Of a DNA stretch of 64,000 bases, positions 1,973 to 31,264 are shown piece by piece. This DNA is from Lysobacteraceae bacterium. GTDB taxonomy: Bacteria > Pseudomonadota > Gammaproteobacteria > Xanthomonadales > Xanthomonadaceae. The DNA lies in the NCBI GenBank assembly GCA_030681035.1, contig JAUXUI010000032.1:1-64000 (forward strand). Direction: 5' to 3'. The stretch's first letter is position 1; every line of letters starts with the position of its first letter. A program made the translations under genes and the position numbers. The notes under the pieces were generated by a model, which ran no database searches, was not told the origin of the DNA, and saw only the letters and a program-made list of their open reading frames with translations.

Positions 1973-2566
1973 TTATGGCGCCGCAACCGGAATCAAGGTT
2001 GTCATCACATGCTCGACGTAGGCGTCGTATTCATCGTGATGCAGCCGCGCCTGCTGCGATTGCAGGCTCAGTTGCAGGAATCCGACGTAGGCAGCATAGG
2101 TGAGGCGCGCGCGATGTTGCGCCTCGACCCGGCCCATGCCGGCCTGACGATAGGACGCGGTGAGGTAATCCAGGCGGCGTTTGGACACCCGCTCGATCAC
2201 CGGCTGCACCACCGGATGGTCCAATGCCTTGAGCAGTTCGGAATAGATAATGTGTGAGCGGGCTTCGTGCGCCACCAGTTTGAACAGTGCGCGCATCCGC
2301 TCGCGCGGGTCGGAAATGGCCTCAAGGGTGCCGAACACTGCTTCCTGTTCGTACGCCTCCCAACGGCTGAGCGCGGCCTCCAGCAAGGCTTCGCGCGATG
2401 GGTAATGCCAGTAGAAGCTGCCCTTGGTGACACTGAGCCGGCGCGCCAATGGCTCCACCGCGACCGCTGCAATGCCGCTTTCGGCAACCACGTCGAGCGC
2501 AGCGCGGGCCCAGTCCTCGGCACTCAGCCGCGCGGGCTTGTCAGTCTTGGTCATCGTTCTAGCCAT
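1973..2566 (-). CDS. TetR family transcriptional regulator
   Basis: A 197-residue TetR-type repressor. The N-terminal helix-turn-helix (DVVAESGIAAVAVEPLARRLSVTKGSFYWHYPSREALLEAAL) matches the family closely; the C-terminal ligand domain is less conserved and its ligand cannot be read. I chose the ATG at 2566. A promoter-like TTGCCA, 16 bases, TACACT places the transcript start at or next to that ATG, suggesting a leaderless mRNA; a longer frame starts at 2614. The half-site TATGGTTA overlaps its -10 and resembles the arms of the palindrome in front of the hydrolase-fadE operon (3146-3171). Self-regulation and control of that operon are therefore possible but inferred. Confidence 0.88.
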   Translation of the reverse strand: MARTMTKTDKPARLSAEDWARAALDVVAESGIAAVAVEPLARRLSVTKGSFYWHYPSREALLEAALSRWEAYEQEAVFGTLEAISDPRERMRALFKLVAHEARSHIIYSELLKALDHPVVQPVIERVSKRRLDYLTASYRQAGMGRVEAQHRARLTYAAYVGFLQLSLQSQQARLHHDEYDAYVEHVMTTLIPVAAP

Positions 2567-2629
2567 CGGCGCAGTGTAACCATATGTCGGGCACTGGCAA
2601 GTGATCGAGCCCAACTCAGGTGGGTGGCA

Positions 2630-2815
2630 TTACGGCGGCGGAACCTCAAGGTCTTTACAGATGCGGCGCGCCAAATACTCATTGATTTCTCGGTGACGCG
2701 GCACCGTTGTCGCCTTCTGCGCCACGCGATTCACAAAGACCGAGTGGGCACCACCTTGGCGTAGCAGCTGACATCCATTGTGCTCCAAGTGCCGCACAAG
2801 ATCGCGGCGCTTCAT
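2630..2815 (-). CDS. hicA: HicA-type mRNA interferase toxin
   Basis: A 61-residue HicA toxin, a small double-stranded-RNA-binding-fold ribonuclease that cleaves translated mRNA. The sequence has the family pattern: MKRRDLVRHLEHNGC, then GAHSVFVN with the catalytic-type histidine, then VPRHREINEYLARRICKDL. Its ATG shares one base with the stop of the upstream hicB (TGATG), so the two are translationally coupled. The order is antitoxin first, the reverse of the hicAB pair at 34.4 kb. Confidence 0.88.
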   Translation of the reverse strand: MKRRDLVRHLEHNGCQLLRQGGAHSVFVNRVAQKATTVPRHREINEYLARRICKDLEVPPP

Positions 2816-3030
2816 CAGGCGGCTGCAGCCAGCCTCTCTTTCAAGACCTTGCGCCCTTTAATCGATTCTTCGGCAAGGGCGCGGTTCGCCGCCAGTACCA
2901 ATTCGATGGCCTCTCGTACATTGGCCCGCGCCTCATCCAAGGTGGCACCCTGCGTATTGGCGCCGGGAAGCTCTTCAACGAATGCGATATAGCCCTCGGG
3001 AACCTTTTCAAATACGGCGGTAAACTCCAT
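2815..3030 (-). CDS. hicB: HicB-type antitoxin
   Basis: A 71-residue short HicB antitoxin with the partial RNase-H-like fold (FTAVFEKVPEGYIAFVEELPGANTQGATLDEARANVREAIELVLAANR). It would bind and neutralise the HicA encoded immediately downstream. It lacks a recognisable C-terminal DNA-binding ribbon-helix-helix or HTH domain, unlike the 140-residue HicB at 34.6 kb, so self-regulation is less certain. The start ATG at 3030 fits the family N terminus. Confidence 0.87.
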   Translation of the reverse strand: MEFTAVFEKVPEGYIAFVEELPGANTQGATLDEARANVREAIELVLAANRALAEESIKGRKVLKERLAAAA

Positions 3031-3100: not shown

Positions 3101-3126
3101 GTCGCCCACAGGGTGGGCTCCCACAG
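3101..3126. repeat. single copy of the GTCGCCCACAGGGTGGGCTC repeat
   Basis: One arm of the dispersed repeat family that also occurs at 9313, 16738, 23144 and 31157. Here it lies just before the -35 of the hydrolase promoter. Confidence 0.7.
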
Positions 3127-3127
3127 A

Positions 3128-3171
3128 TTGACAAGCGGGCCGGGCTTTACCATACTGTTGAGTATGGTAAA
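3128..3171 (+). promoter_or_regulatory. promoter with perfect palindromic operator, leaderless start
   Basis: A -35 TTGACA (3128-3133), a 17-base spacer and a -10 CATACT (3151-3156) point to a start at about 3163-3164, which is the ATG of the hydrolase gene. An exact palindrome covers the -10 and the start codon: arms TTTACCATACT (3146-3156) and AGTATGGTAAA (3161-3171) separated by GTTG. This geometry suits a dimeric repressor such as a TetR protein. The sequence is seen directly; its regulator is inferred. Confidence 0.75.
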
Positions 3172-4066
3172 GTCGGATATTGCCGCCGGGATTCACGCCA
3201 CCTCGCAAGCGCTGCGTATCCACAGCGCCGACGGTTTGCTGCTGGCTGCCGAGCGCTGGCCGACGCAAGGGCCCGAGGTGCTGCTGGCACATGGCTTCGG
3301 GCAAACCCGGCAATCGTGGCAGGGCACTGCGGGCAGCCTGCGCGCGAACGGTTACTCGACAATGAGTTTTGACGCCCGCGGCCACGGCGAAAGCGGTCGC
3401 AATGCGCCGATGCAGCGTTACCAACCCGAACAATGGGTCGCCGATCTGCATGCGATCACAGCGCAGGTATCAGGGCCACGGCTGCTGATCGGCGCCTCGA
3501 TGGGCGGCTTGACCGGGTTGATGGCACAGGCCGAACACGCTTTGTTTGATGCCATGGTGCTGGTCGACATCACCCCGCGCTGGGAGGCGGAGGGCTTCGC
3601 CCGCATCGTCGCGTTCATGAGTGCGCACCCGGACGGGTTTGATGACACTGAACATGCCGCCGACGCGATTGCCGGCTACCTGCCGCAACAGCGTGTACGC
3701 AAGCGTCCGGAACAGCTTGCCTCGCTGCTGGTGAAGCGCGACGATGGGCGTCTGGTTTGGCATTGGGACCCGCGCATGCTGACCGACCTACCCATTCAGA
3801 GCGAACCGATCCAGCGCCGCGTGGTCGAAGCTGCGCGGCAGATCACCGTTCCGTTGTTGCTGATCAGCGGTGGCCAAAGCGATCTGGTGTCCGAACAGAC
3901 TGTGGCCGAGTTTCTTGAACTGGTGCCACACGCCCAGCACCGGCGTATCGACAAAGCCAGCCATATGGTGGCTGGCGACGACAATGCGGCCTTCACGGCC
4001 GCCATTCACGCTTTTCTTGCGTCCCCTGCGGCTCGCGCCGCGCTGTGTACCGGAGAACACCGATGA
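3164..4066 (+). CDS. alpha/beta hydrolase
   Basis: A 300-residue alpha/beta hydrolase. Landmarks are LLAHGFGQTRQSW (oxyanion region), FDARGHGESG, and the nucleophile elbow GASMGG with its serine; a late KASHMVAGD supplies the candidate catalytic histidine. The substrate cannot be read; an ester or thioester is likely. I chose the ATG at 3164 because the promoter places the transcript start there and the protein similarity begins there; an in-frame start at 3113 lies upstream of the promoter. The stop overlaps the fadE start (ATGA), so the two form an operon, suggesting a role in handling fatty acyl compounds. Confidence 0.88.
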   Translation: MVKSDIAAGIHATSQALRIHSADGLLLAAERWPTQGPEVLLAHGFGQTRQSWQGTAGSLRANGYSTMSFDARGHGESGRNAPMQRYQPEQWVADLHAITAQVSGPRLLIGASMGGLTGLMAQAEHALFDAMVLVDITPRWEAEGFARIVAFMSAHPDGFDDTEHAADAIAGYLPQQRVRKRPEQLASLLVKRDDGRLVWHWDPRMLTDLPIQSEPIQRRVVEAARQITVPLLLISGGQSDLVSEQTVAEFLELVPHAQHRRIDKASHMVAGDDNAAFTAAIHAFLASPAARAALCTGEHR

Positions 4067-6528
4067 GCATCGTGCTTCCGTTTCTTGCTATTGCCGTGGC
4101 CGGCGCGTTGGCCGCCTATCACCGCATGCCGCTGCTGTTCTGGGCGCTGCTTTCAGCCGCGCTGCTGACCGGCTCGGCATTTGCCGGCGCCAACCCGGTC
4201 GCTCTCTGGATCGCGGTGATTGGCCTGGTCTTGATTACCGTGCCGCTGTTGATCGCGCCGTTTCGGCGCAGCGCGATCACCACGCCGCTGCTGAAGTTTT
4301 ACACCCGCATCCTGCCGCCACTGTCGGCTACCGAGCGCACTGCACTGGAGGCAGGCACGGTCGGTTTTGAGGGCGAGTTGTTTTCCGGCAAGCCCAAATG
4401 GAACGAGTTGCTCGATCAGCCCAAGCCGCGACTGAGCGCCGAGGAACAAGCATTCCTTGATGGCCCCTGTGAAGACGTGTGCGCACTGATCGATGATTGG
4501 GAAATCACCCACGAGCGCGCCGATCTGCCGCCGAAGGTGTGGGATTACCTGAAGAAGCACAAGTTCTTCGGCATGATCATTCCTCGACAGTACGGTGGCC
4601 TGCAGTTCTCGGCACTGGCGCATTCGCGGGTACTGCAAAAGCTGGCGTCGATATCGACCACGGTCAGCTCGACCGTCGCCGTACCCAACTCGCTGGGCCC
4701 GGCCGAATTGCTGCTGCACTACGGCACCGAGGAGCAGAAAAACCATTACCTGCCACGCCTGGCCGATGGCCGTGACATCCCCTGTTTCGCGCTGACCGGC
4801 CCGCATGCCGGTTCGGATGCCACCTCGATCCCCGATTACGGCATCGTCTGCACCGGCAAGTGGAACGGCGCCGAAGTGGTCGGCATCCGGCTTACCTTCG
4901 ACAAGCGCTACATCACCCTGGCACCCGTTGCGAGCGTGGTCGGTCTGGCGTTCCGCATGTACGACCCGGACGGCTTGCTCGGCGAAGTCAAGGACATCGG
5001 CATCAGCCTGGCGCTGATTCCGCGCGATACCCCAGGGCTGGAAATCGGCCGTCGCCATTTCCCGCTCAATGTGCCGTTCCAGAATGGCCCGGTGCGCGGC
5101 AAGGACGTGTTCGTGCCGCTGTCGGCGCTGATTGGCGGCCCGGACATGGCCGGCCAGGGCTGGCGCATGCTGGTTGAGGTGCTGTCGGTGGGCCGCGCAA
5201 TTTCGCTGCCCTCCAATGCTACCGGCGCGATGAAGATCGGTGCGCTGGTCACCGGTGCCTATTCACGCATCCGCAAACAGTTTGGCCTCTCGATTGGCCG
5301 CTTCGAGGGTATTCAGGAAGCCTTGGCGCGCATCGCCGGCCACACCTACGCGATGAGCGCGCTGACACTATCCACGGCGGCGGCGGTGGATCGCGGCGAG
5401 AAGCCGTCGGTGCCGTCGGCGATCGCCAAATATCACGCCACTGAAATCAGCCGCGAAGTGGTCAAGGACGCGATGGACGTGCATGGCGGCAAGGGTGTCA
5501 TCCTCGGCCCACGCAATTATCTGGGCCGCGCCTGGCAGGGCTCGCCGATTGCGATCACGGTGGAGGGTGCCAACATCCTCACCCGCAGCATGATGATCTT
5601 CGGCCAGGGCGCCATCCGCTGCCATCCGTGGGTACTGAAGGAAATGCAGGCGGCACAAGACCCGGATCGCGCTGCCGGCCTGCGCGCGTTCGACCATGCG
5701 CTGTTCAGCCATATCGGCTTCGCCATTTCCAATGCCGTGCGCAGCTTCTGGCTCGGCCTCACCTTCGCCAATTACGGCAGCGCGCCGGGCGACAAATACA
5801 CCGCCCGCTTCTACCGCAAGCTCAACCGCTATTCGGCCAATCTGGCACTGGTTGCCGACACCTCAATGCTGCTGCTCGGCGGCAAGCTCAAGTTCAAGGA
5901 AAGCCTGTCGGCGCGTCTGGGCGATGTGCTCAGTGGCCTGTATATCGCCAGCGCCATGCTCAAGCGTTACGAGGATGAAGGCCGCCCAAGCGACGAGCAG
6001 CCATTGCTGGCCTGGGCCTTCCACGACCGCGCCCATCGCATCGAACTGGCGCTGTCGGCGGCGCTGCGCAATTTCCCGATCCGTCCGGTCGGCTGGTTGC
6101 TGTGGCTGCTGGTGTTCCCGTTCGGTCGGCGGGCGCAGGCACCGTCGGATCGACTCGGTCGCCGTGCCGCGGCGCTGCTGATGTCGCCATCAGCAGCGCG
6201 TGATCGCCTTGGTGAAGGGGTGTATCTGACCCCCGGCGCGCACCACCCGGCCGGCCGTATCAATGCGGCGCTGGCGAAAGCCATTCTGGCCGAGCCGATC
6301 GAGCGTAAATTCCTCAAGGCGCTGAAAAACAGCGATATCGAAGCGCTGGAGTTCGAGGATCAACTGAGCGAAGGCGTGAAGGAGGGCTGGATCAGCGCCG
6401 ATGAGCGTCGCCTGCTCGAAGAATTGCGCAAAATCACCATGGATGCGATCACGGTCGATGATTTCGATCCGGTCGATCTCGCTGCCGGCAAGCGCAGCGT
6501 AACCGCGCGGGTCGAGAAGGCGGCATGA
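4063..6528 (+). CDS. fadE: acyl-CoA dehydrogenase FadE
   Basis: An 821-residue FadE-type acyl-CoA dehydrogenase, which carries out the first FAD-dependent step of fatty-acid beta-oxidation. Two or three hydrophobic segments at the N terminus (MSIVLPFLAIAVAGALAAYH and the next 50 residues) anchor it to the membrane, as in E. coli FadE (814 residues). The dehydrogenase core has PCFALTGPHAGSDA and the VHGGKGVILGPRNYLGR stretch, followed by the long FadE-specific C-terminal domain. The start at 4063 overlaps the upstream hydrolase stop by ATGA. It is probably controlled by the palindrome at 3146-3171. Confidence 0.95.
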   Translation: MSIVLPFLAIAVAGALAAYHRMPLLFWALLSAALLTGSAFAGANPVALWIAVIGLVLITVPLLIAPFRRSAITTPLLKFYTRILPPLSATERTALEAGTVGFEGELFSGKPKWNELLDQPKPRLSAEEQAFLDGPCEDVCALIDDWEITHERADLPPKVWDYLKKHKFFGMIIPRQYGGLQFSALAHSRVLQKLASISTTVSSTVAVPNSLGPAELLLHYGTEEQKNHYLPRLADGRDIPCFALTGPHAGSDATSIPDYGIVCTGKWNGAEVVGIRLTFDKRYITLAPVASVVGLAFRMYDPDGLLGEVKDIGISLALIPRDTPGLEIGRRHFPLNVPFQNGPVRGKDVFVPLSALIGGPDMAGQGWRMLVEVLSVGRAISLPSNATGAMKIGALVTGAYSRIRKQFGLSIGRFEGIQEALARIAGHTYAMSALTLSTAAAVDRGEKPSVPSAIAKYHATEISREVVKDAMDVHGGKGVILGPRNYLGRAWQGSPIAITVEGANILTRSMMIFGQGAIRCHPWVLKEMQAAQDPDRAAGLRAFDHALFSHIGFAISNAVRSFWLGLTFANYGSAPGDKYTARFYRKLNRYSANLALVADTSMLLLGGKLKFKESLSARLGDVLSGLYIASAMLKRYEDEGRPSDEQPLLAWAFHDRAHRIELALSAALRNFPIRPVGWLLWLLVFPFGRRAQAPSDRLGRRAAALLMSPSAARDRLGEGVYLTPGAHHPAGRINAALAKAILAEPIERKFLKALKNSDIEALEFEDQLSEGVKEGWISADERRLLEELRKITMDAITVDDFDPVDLAAGKRSVTARVEKAA

Positions 6529-7470: not shown

Positions 7471-9261
7471 ATGAACAGCTACAAAGCCCCACAACGTGAC
7501 ATGCAATTCGCCCTGTTCGACGTGCTTGGCGTACAGGCGCTGTACCAGCGTTTGGGCTTTGATGCCGCGCAGCGCGACGTGCTCGATGCCGTGCTTGAAG
7601 AAGGCGCGCGTTTCACCGAGCAGGTGCTGGCGCCGCTCAATCAAACCGGCGATGCCGAAGGCTGCGTCTACGACAAGGCCAGCGGCGCGGTGTCGGCACC
7701 CAAGGGCTTCAAGCAGGCGTATCAGCAGTTCGTTGAAGGTGGCTGGAACGGATTGACCGCCGCTGAGGCATTTGGCGGGCAGGGTCTGCCGGAGTCGTTC
7801 GGCGTAGCGCTCAAGGAAATGATCGATGCCGCCAACCTCGCCTGGGGCAACTACCCGTTGCTTTCGCATGGCGCTACCGAAGCGCTGAAACATCATGGCG
7901 AAGACTGGCAAAAAGACGTGTTCCTGCGCGCCATCGTCGATGGCCGCTGGACCGGCACCATGTGCCTCACCGAACCGCATTGCGGTTCCGATCTGGGCCT
8001 GCTCAAAACCCGCGCCGAACCGCAGGCCGATGGCAGTTACGCGATCACCGGCACCAAGATATTCATCACCGCCGGCGAGCACGATTTCACTGACAACATC
8101 GTGCATCTGGTGCTGGCGCGGCTGCCCGATGCACCGCCCGGAACCAAGGGCATTTCCACCTTCATCGTGCCCAAGCGCACGGTTGCACGCGATGGCAGTG
8201 TCGGTGACGGCAATGCGGTGCGCTGTGGCGCCATCGAACACAAGATGGGCATCCACGGCTCGGCCACCTGCGTGATGAACTTCGACGGCGCGCAGGGCTA
8301 CCTGATCGGCCCGGCCAACAAGGGTCTGTCGGTGATGTTCACGATGATGAACAGTGCCCGCCTTTCGGTCGGCATCCAGGGCCTTGGCCTGATCGATCGC
8401 GCTTACCAGAACGCGCTGGCCTATACCCGCGACCGGCTGCAGATGCGTTCACTGTCCGGCCCCAAGTTCCCGGACAAGCCCGCCGACCCGCTGATCGTGC
8501 ATCCTGATGTACGGCGCATGCTGCTGACCTGCAAAGCCTTTGCCGAGGGCGGCCGGCTGCTGGCCTATCACGCGGCGACCCTGCTCGATGTCATCGAACA
8601 CAGCGCCGACGCCGAGGAGCGCAAACGCGCCGATGACCTGCTCAGCTTCCTCACCCCGGTGGTCAAGGCCTGCCTGACCGAATGGAGTATCGAAAGTACC
8701 TACAACGCGCTGCAATGCTTTGGTGGCCACGGCTATGTGCGCGGGTGGGGCATGGAGCAACTCAGCCGCGATGCCCGCATCACCACCATTTACGAAGGCA
8801 CCACCCAGATCCAGGCGCTGGATCTGCTCGGCCGCAAAATACTGCAAACGCAAGGGCCGGGCCTGCGTCAGTTTGGTGCGCTCATCGAGGCGTTCTGCAT
8901 TGAACATGCCGGGAACGCGGCGTTGGCCGAGTTCATCGGCCCGTTGGCAGAAAAGGCCAAAGAACTGGCAACGCTGACCCTGGAAATCGGTGGCAAGGCC
9001 GCACGCGACCCCGAGGAGATTGGTGCCGCCGCAGTCGATTACCTGTTCCATACCGGCTACGTGGTGCTGGCTTACTGGTGGGCGCGCGCGGTGGCGGTCA
9101 GCGCTGCCGGCGATTATCCGGCGGCATTCAAGGCCGCCAAGCGCGATACCGCGCGCTTCTATTTCGCCCGCATCCTGCCACGCACCTTGAACCACGCCGC
9201 CGGCATACGCGCGGGTGCGGCCAGCTTGCTGGCGCTGGATGCCGACAACTTCGATAGCTGA
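7471..9261 (+). CDS. acyl-CoA dehydrogenase (FadE5-like)
   Basis: A 596-residue acyl-CoA dehydrogenase of the large soluble class with a C-terminal extension. FAD- and substrate-binding signatures are MCLTEPHCGSDLGLLKTRAE and KIFITAGEHDFTDN; the catalytic region is QCFGGHGYVRGWGMEQLSRDARITTIYEGTTQIQA, including the IYEGT motif. Length and order fit the FadE5/AcdA type that acts on medium- to long-chain acyl-CoA. It lies about 940 bases after fadE on the same strand, separated by two small genes; no shared operator was seen in front of it. Confidence 0.93.
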   Translation: MNSYKAPQRDMQFALFDVLGVQALYQRLGFDAAQRDVLDAVLEEGARFTEQVLAPLNQTGDAEGCVYDKASGAVSAPKGFKQAYQQFVEGGWNGLTAAEAFGGQGLPESFGVALKEMIDAANLAWGNYPLLSHGATEALKHHGEDWQKDVFLRAIVDGRWTGTMCLTEPHCGSDLGLLKTRAEPQADGSYAITGTKIFITAGEHDFTDNIVHLVLARLPDAPPGTKGISTFIVPKRTVARDGSVGDGNAVRCGAIEHKMGIHGSATCVMNFDGAQGYLIGPANKGLSVMFTMMNSARLSVGIQGLGLIDRAYQNALAYTRDRLQMRSLSGPKFPDKPADPLIVHPDVRRMLLTCKAFAEGGRLLAYHAATLLDVIEHSADAEERKRADDLLSFLTPVVKACLTEWSIESTYNALQCFGGHGYVRGWGMEQLSRDARITTIYEGTTQIQALDLLGRKILQTQGPGLRQFGALIEAFCIEHAGNAALAEFIGPLAEKAKELATLTLEIGGKAARDPEEIGAAAVDYLFHTGYVVLAYWWARAVAVSAAGDYPAAFKAAKRDTARFYFARILPRTLNHAAGIRAGAASLLALDADNFDS

Positions 9262-9312
9262 GTTGCAGAGCCATACACTGGAGTGACAGTTTCCGGCGTG
9301 GTGATGATCCCG

Positions 9313-9374
9313 GTCGCCCACAAGGTGGGCTCCTACAGGGGGGCGCATTTGTAGGAGCCCACCTTGTGGGCGAC
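9313..9374. repeat. paired inverted REP-like repeat
   Basis: GTCGCCCACAAGGTGGGCTC and its reverse complement stand as a hairpin-forming pair separated by about 15 bases, between the convergent acyl-CoA dehydrogenase and TraB genes. It is a copy of the family described at 3101 and may act as a bidirectional transcription end. Confidence 0.75.
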
Positions 9375-9433
9375 CAATTCTGCGAATACGGGCGACGCGT
9401 CGCACCACCATGACGCACCTGACAGCGACGGCC

Positions 9434-16737: not shown

Positions 16738-16808
16738 GTCGCCCACAGGGTGGGCTCCTACAAAAAGCGCGATGACCTGTTCCTGTAGGAGCCCACCCTG
16801 TGGGCGAC
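16738..16808. repeat. paired inverted REP-like repeat
   Basis: GTCGCCCACAGGGTGGGCTC and its reverse complement flank about 20 bases of spacer. It is the same family as the pairs at 9313 and 31157, and runs straight into the 66-base tandem repeat that follows. Confidence 0.78.
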
Positions 16809-31156: not shown

Positions 31157-31264
31157 GTCGCCCACAGGGTGGGCTCCTACAGGGACAGAGTGCCGCTGTT
31201 TGTGGGAGCCTCCACCGTCGAAGCAACTGACCGAGCGCATGTAGGAGCCCACCCTGTGGGCGAC
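31157..31264. repeat. paired inverted REP-like repeat
   Basis: GTCGCCCACAGGGTGGGCTC (31157-31176) and its reverse complement (31241-31264) are separated by about 60 bases that contain another partial copy. This fills most of the 336-base gap between aceK and the lipoprotein gene; no gene is visible there. Confidence 0.78.

Follow-up and report, generated by a model that had tools for sequence, protein, structure and literature searches.

The closest described relative of the locus reported here is the TfmR system of Xanthomonas citri, in which the regulator XAC3052 is encoded divergently from mhpC-fadE (PMC6637906). TfmR of X. citri binds the mhpC/fadE promoter in EMSA and ChIP-qPCR, repression was also seen with reporters, and strains without tfmR derepress mhpC/fadE 50- to 100-fold; binding is lost with C14 to C20 fatty acids (PMC6637906). 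The protein also bound the fadH promoter, and the same arrangement was reported across the Xanthomonadales, in some members without mhpC (PMC6637906). We found no operator sequence in the main text of that report, where 'palindrom' and 'motif' occur in general statements only. The TfmR of Xanthomonas oryzae pv. oryzicola resembles the regulator studied here in its shared name, and the main text describing it contains none of the words motif, palindrom, consensus, footprint, fadE or start site (PMC11173191); the passages on TfmR in a review of PsrA give no site either (PMC13104628). PsrA (Smlt2053) is likewise a TetR-family regulator of beta-oxidation genes that responds to long-chain fatty acids, but its consensus, G/CAAAC(N2-4)GTTTG/C (PMC10304680), is unlike the CCATAC-N6-GTATGG of the palindrome described below, as a sequence-only reading of this DNA had claimed, and PsrA and TfmR are 18% identical (PMC13104628). 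FadR (GntR family) and FadP (TetR family) also regulate fatty acid degradation in Proteobacteria, although FadR is from a different family and FadP is said to occur in betaproteobacteria alone (PMC5343134). Literature searches for the half-site together with fadE and TetR returned no usable match.

The window, a 64,000-nucleotide stretch of DNA from a Lysobacteraceae bacterium, shares with X. citri a TetR gene divergent from a hydrolase-fadE operon, and the system is of the TfmR-mhpC/fadE kind, with its regulator and target already known. The tfmR ortholog, a TetR-family repressor gene, lies on the minus strand at 1973-2566 (197 aa from the ATG at 2566, with a later in-frame ATG at 2554; TetR_N 3.5e-11). 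On the plus strand, an alpha/beta hydrolase gene at 3164-4066 (Hydrolase_4 1.1e-20) is, by X. citri locus order, the counterpart of the mhpC/bioH-type XAC3053. It is followed by fadE, an acyl-CoA dehydrogenase gene at 4063-6528 (NCBIfam PRK09463, 1133.8 bits against a cut-off of 600; ACDH_C 2.6e-109), whose ATG overlaps the hydrolase stop codon. Two differences from the X. citri system are found in the window: a HicAB pair stands between regulator and operon, and a second operator, O2, is missing. The pair (2630-3030), which went unmentioned in the sequence-only reading, separates tfmR from the hydrolase-fadE operon and consists of a HicA toxin gene (2630-2815, minus strand; HicA_toxin 6.1e-14) and a HicB/UPF0150-like antitoxin gene (2815-3030, minus strand; UPF0150 7.2e-06, narrowly missing its cut-off). 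HicAB is missing from three congeneric loci (L034, L035 and L036), in which the TetR gene is 95.8-100% identical; the insertion is therefore probably a recent event confined to this genome. A further difference from the published X. citri work is that the operator is here located, with its sequence given and the start codon within it. The virulence roles of X. citri TfmR are not carried over to the window's system.

The putative operator, O1, occupies 3145-3172 on the plus strand as the perfect palindrome CTTTACCATACT-GTTG-AGTATGGTAAAG. It had been described as an exact 11+4+11 palindrome; its exactness stands, and its size is 12+4+12, one pair more. Within it, positions 3150-3167 carry the conserved core CCATACTGTTGAGTATGG, which has the form CCATAC-N6-GTATGG. 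The palindrome has a G+C content of 36%, against 62% for the window. A 22-base O1 pattern matched once in the window, and 0 of 100 shuffles contained a match; the genome scan that the earlier reading had proposed returned this single site in the whole 3.6 Mb, even allowing up to three mismatches. Perfect inverted repeats with arms of at least 12 bases number five in the window, compared with three in total over 20 order-1 Markov simulations, and the other four lie at 6172, 9312, 30104 and 37115; such repeats are rare, but O1 is not the only one in the window. The core itself has one exact match in the window's genome, and its one-mismatch matches number four, as against four for a control, so that there is no evidence of more targets in this genome.

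Conservation was assessed on loci gathered by the hydrolase protein alone. Leaving out the truncated L064 and L087, the 80 loci so gathered gave 78, or 79 with the window; loci whose protein alignment started beyond residue 70 were removed before counting. Loci L119-L178, mostly chosen for the exact pattern, were excluded from the 79-locus count and included in a frame count of 91 hydrolase loci and 22 loci with fadE directly after O1, where frame alone is informative. Ahead of the hydrolase, the O1 core is exact in 70/79 loci and carries one mismatch in the other 9, with a chance expectation, calculated by hand, of about 0.001 per 460-bp region. Across 74 distinct sites, agreement between paired positions is 93-100% in the core and 5-50% in the spacer and outer arms (0.15-0.50 for the outer arms, which are not conserved), and we therefore take the operator proper to be the 6+6+6 core; the long arms of O1, which lie outside it, are a feature of the window's genus. 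The base after GTATGG is T in 84% of distinct sites. At the genome level, 103 of the 149 Lysobacterales (Xanthomonadales) genomes contain the exact core, with 129 sites versus 6 for a reversed control pattern. Outside the order it occurs in 18/182 genomes versus 14/182 for the control, which is chance level (the site totals and both of these fractions are hand sums of per-genome counts). O1 also precedes fadE directly in loci without the hydrolase. Of the extra exact sites fetched from other genomes of the order, most have neither fadE nor the hydrolase nor tfmR close by. One exact core (L166:2001-2018) lies just 5' of a 51% relative of the window's second acyl-CoA dehydrogenase (7471-9261), making that gene in the L166 genome a possible further TfmR target. 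This Xanthomonadaceae locus is also found on two contigs titled Rhizobium sp. and Bacillus subtilis (L041 and L089), which probably reflects mislabelling or mixed assemblies.

O1 is built into a promoter. The TTGACA-17-CATACT promoter of the sequence-only reading was recovered, with the -35 element TTGACA at 3128-3133 and the -10 element CATACT at 3151-3156 on the plus strand, separated by 17 nt, the latter lying within the left half-site of O1. Among the 91 hydrolase loci, TTGACA is exact in 60 and has one mismatch in 30, standing 16-18 nt 5' of the -10, which reads CATACT in 70, CATACC in 16, AATACT in 3 and GATACT in 2. CATACT fits the -10 consensus at four of six positions only. The -10 is the weak point of the case, both for this imperfect hexamer and for the CATACC loci. 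In 60 of the 79 protein-picked loci there is also, with at most one mismatch, the second operator O2, CCATAC-N6-GTATTGACA (that is, CCATAC-N6-GTATTG and then AC), 36-38 bp upstream of O1, and its right half merges into the -35 TTGACA. O2 is absent from the window and from the three congeneric loci, and TTGACA is kept in all four. More generally, 22 of the 23 hydrolase loci without O2 retain TTGAC at a 16-18 nt spacer (the exception is L091), which argues for a genuine -35 that is retained in its own right.

Two accounts of the missing O2 were considered and set aside. The idea that long arms of O1 compensate for O2 loss was discarded as a general explanation: Pseudoxanthomonas loci have neither O2 nor extended O1 arms, and in L055 arms of 12 bases coexist with O2. 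The O2 position of other genera is taken up by a copy of a dispersed repeat, GGTGGGCTCCYACA (3112-3125, plus strand) and ends just before the -35; the repeat has 319 genome matches versus 0 in a reversed control. As a cause of O2 loss it is unsupported, because L034-L036 lack O2 without a repeat copy there. This REP-like repeat, often arranged in inverted pairs, occurs in the window at 3112-3125, 9312-9375, 16749-16797 and 31168-31253.

The hydrolase start codon is an ATG at 3164-3166 on the plus strand, within the right half-site of O1 and 7 nt after the -10. In 89 of the 91 hydrolase loci, the ATG of GTATGG is in frame with the hydrolase with no stop between, the exceptions being L070 and L111, in which ACG replaces ATG. 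The distance from this ATG to the aligned part of the protein varies from 0 to 46 codons, and in two loci the alignment starts before the ATG. The loci with fadE directly after O1 served as a control: there, 1/22 (L153) has the ATG in frame without an intervening stop, and the frames are spread 7, 7 and 8. The difference between the two sets identifies the operator ATG as the hydrolase start in the hydrolase arrangement, the 89 loci being related and therefore not independent. A Shine-Dalgarno-like word (four words tried) precedes the ATG in one hydrolase locus; the other 90, the window included, have none. Transcription is predicted to start at the A at 3164 or within 1-2 nt of it. Since the start codon sits where transcription should begin, 7 nt after the -10, the hydrolase-fadE message is probably leaderless. 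The earlier reading had called it so; the start-codon position behind that claim is strongly supported by the comparison, and the 5' end we only infer. Literature searches on leaderless or mapped starts in Xanthomonas gave no usable match.

The same evidence bears on an alternative in which O1 does serve TfmR as operator but the transcript carries a short leader from which the ATG is read, transcription starting further upstream. The imperfect -10, with CATACC in 16/91 loci, would fit this arrangement, as would the loci carrying the same O1 directly ahead of fadE, which must have a leader because fadE begins downstream. However, a short leader accords poorly with the retention of TTGAC at 16-18 nt in nearly all hydrolase loci without O2, with the single Shine-Dalgarno-like word among 91 loci, and with a -10-to-ATG distance that the operator fixes at 7 nt. 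We regard it as unlikely, and the leaderless message as the better reading.

As for the protein that would act at O1, a TetR ortholog stands divergent from and upstream of the hydrolase in 79/79 loci examined. The site, its conservation, its partner gene and the frame of the start codon can be read directly from the DNA. Among the TfmR orthologs the N-terminal, DNA-binding domain is the most conserved part (mean agreement 0.93 vs 0.82), and among relatives with a name that have the locus, the closest is Xanthomonas massiliensis (L090), whose TfmR is 65% identical. By synteny and the published description, the window's TetR protein is taken to be the ortholog of XAC3052. Solved structures offered only general TetR relatives (best 3.7e-06), so no inference on ligand is drawn from them. 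A transcription factor other than the adjacent TetR protein might in principle bind the palindrome, and X. citri does have another gene of the TetR family, the PsrA-like XAC2014, close to beta-oxidation genes (PMC6637906). Such a factor would have to be reconciled with the unbroken association of the TetR ortholog with the site, with the binding of X. citri TfmR to the mhpC/fadE promoter (PMC6637906), and with a PsrA consensus that differs from O1; we consider it very improbable. Least credible of all, to the point of being negligible, is that the palindrome arose by chance or acts as an RNA hairpin or terminator: the window does hold four further perfect inverted repeats whose arms reach at least 12 bases, but across the order the two half-sites of the core are conserved and the spacer and outer arms vary, the palindrome is A+T-rich and sits on a promoter and start codon, and no shuffle in 100 produced a match.

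The promoter region of tfmR itself (2573-2585, minus strand) carries a -10-like TACACT (2573-2578), 6 nt from the in-frame minus-strand ATG at 2566, adjoined by an imperfect half-site, CCATAT, at 2580-2585. A half-site similar to those of O1 had been claimed at the TetR promoter; it exists, in this imperfect form. Under a rule requiring GTATGG at a distance of 5-25 nt ahead of a tfmR ATG that is in frame, the 79 loci divide into 45 with an exact half-site, 4 with one mismatch (the window included) and 30 with none, and several of these 30, for example L037, have GTATGG right at the ATG of tfmR. Loss of tfmR in X. citri leaves the tfmR promoter unaltered (PMC6637906), and a regulatory role of the tfmR-side half-site is for this reason doubtful. 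The tfmR message (window 2551-2585) also looks leaderless, with the -10-like TACACT, 6 nt and the ATG in succession. Many Stenotrophomonas and Pseudoxanthomonas loci have GTATGGTTAAAT, and then an ATG 6-7 nt on.

Taken together, we hold it highly likely that the palindrome serves the adjacent TfmR ortholog as its operator, O1, and controls a hydrolase-fadE operon that is probably leaderless, with both the binding and the 5' end inferred from the sequence. That the operon is a TetR-controlled one for fatty-acid degradation, as had been predicted from the letters of the window, is strongly supported by the joint retention of TetR ortholog and core across the order and by repression of the same arrangement by TfmR in X. 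citri. Repression, promoter binding and release by fatty acids come from X. citri, and for the window's protein and site they would hold by analogy. We postulate that a TfmR dimer on CCATAC-N6-GTATGG would cover the -10 and the start point, so that RNA polymerase could not start the hydrolase-fadE operon. A rise in long-chain fatty acids or their CoA esters would cause TfmR to release, and the operon would then be made. In most relatives O2, 36-38 bp upstream, would additionally cover the -35. The right half-site of O1, being the hydrolase start codon placed at the transcription start, would yield the leaderless message.

We also lean, with less assurance, towards a broader reading in which the TfmR half-sites double as parts of the expression machinery, the right half of O2 serving as the -35, the left half of O1 as the -10, and its right half as transcription start and leaderless ATG. 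Operator, promoter and translation start would then evolve as one unit across the Lysobacterales, with the second codon constrained by the operator, and the loci with fadE first would be without the start-codon function. In the literature searched we found no description of the operator sequence or of how it is merged with -35, -10 and start codon; an earlier prediction (e.g. Kazakov et al. 2009) is possible.

With this finding TfmR, which as a repressor connects fatty acids with metabolism and, in X. citri, with virulence, gains an operator sequence that can be tested. It also makes the start codons of the hydrolase correctable in many genomes. As a comparative example, the fused operator, promoter and start codon argue clearly for a leaderless start retained throughout an order.
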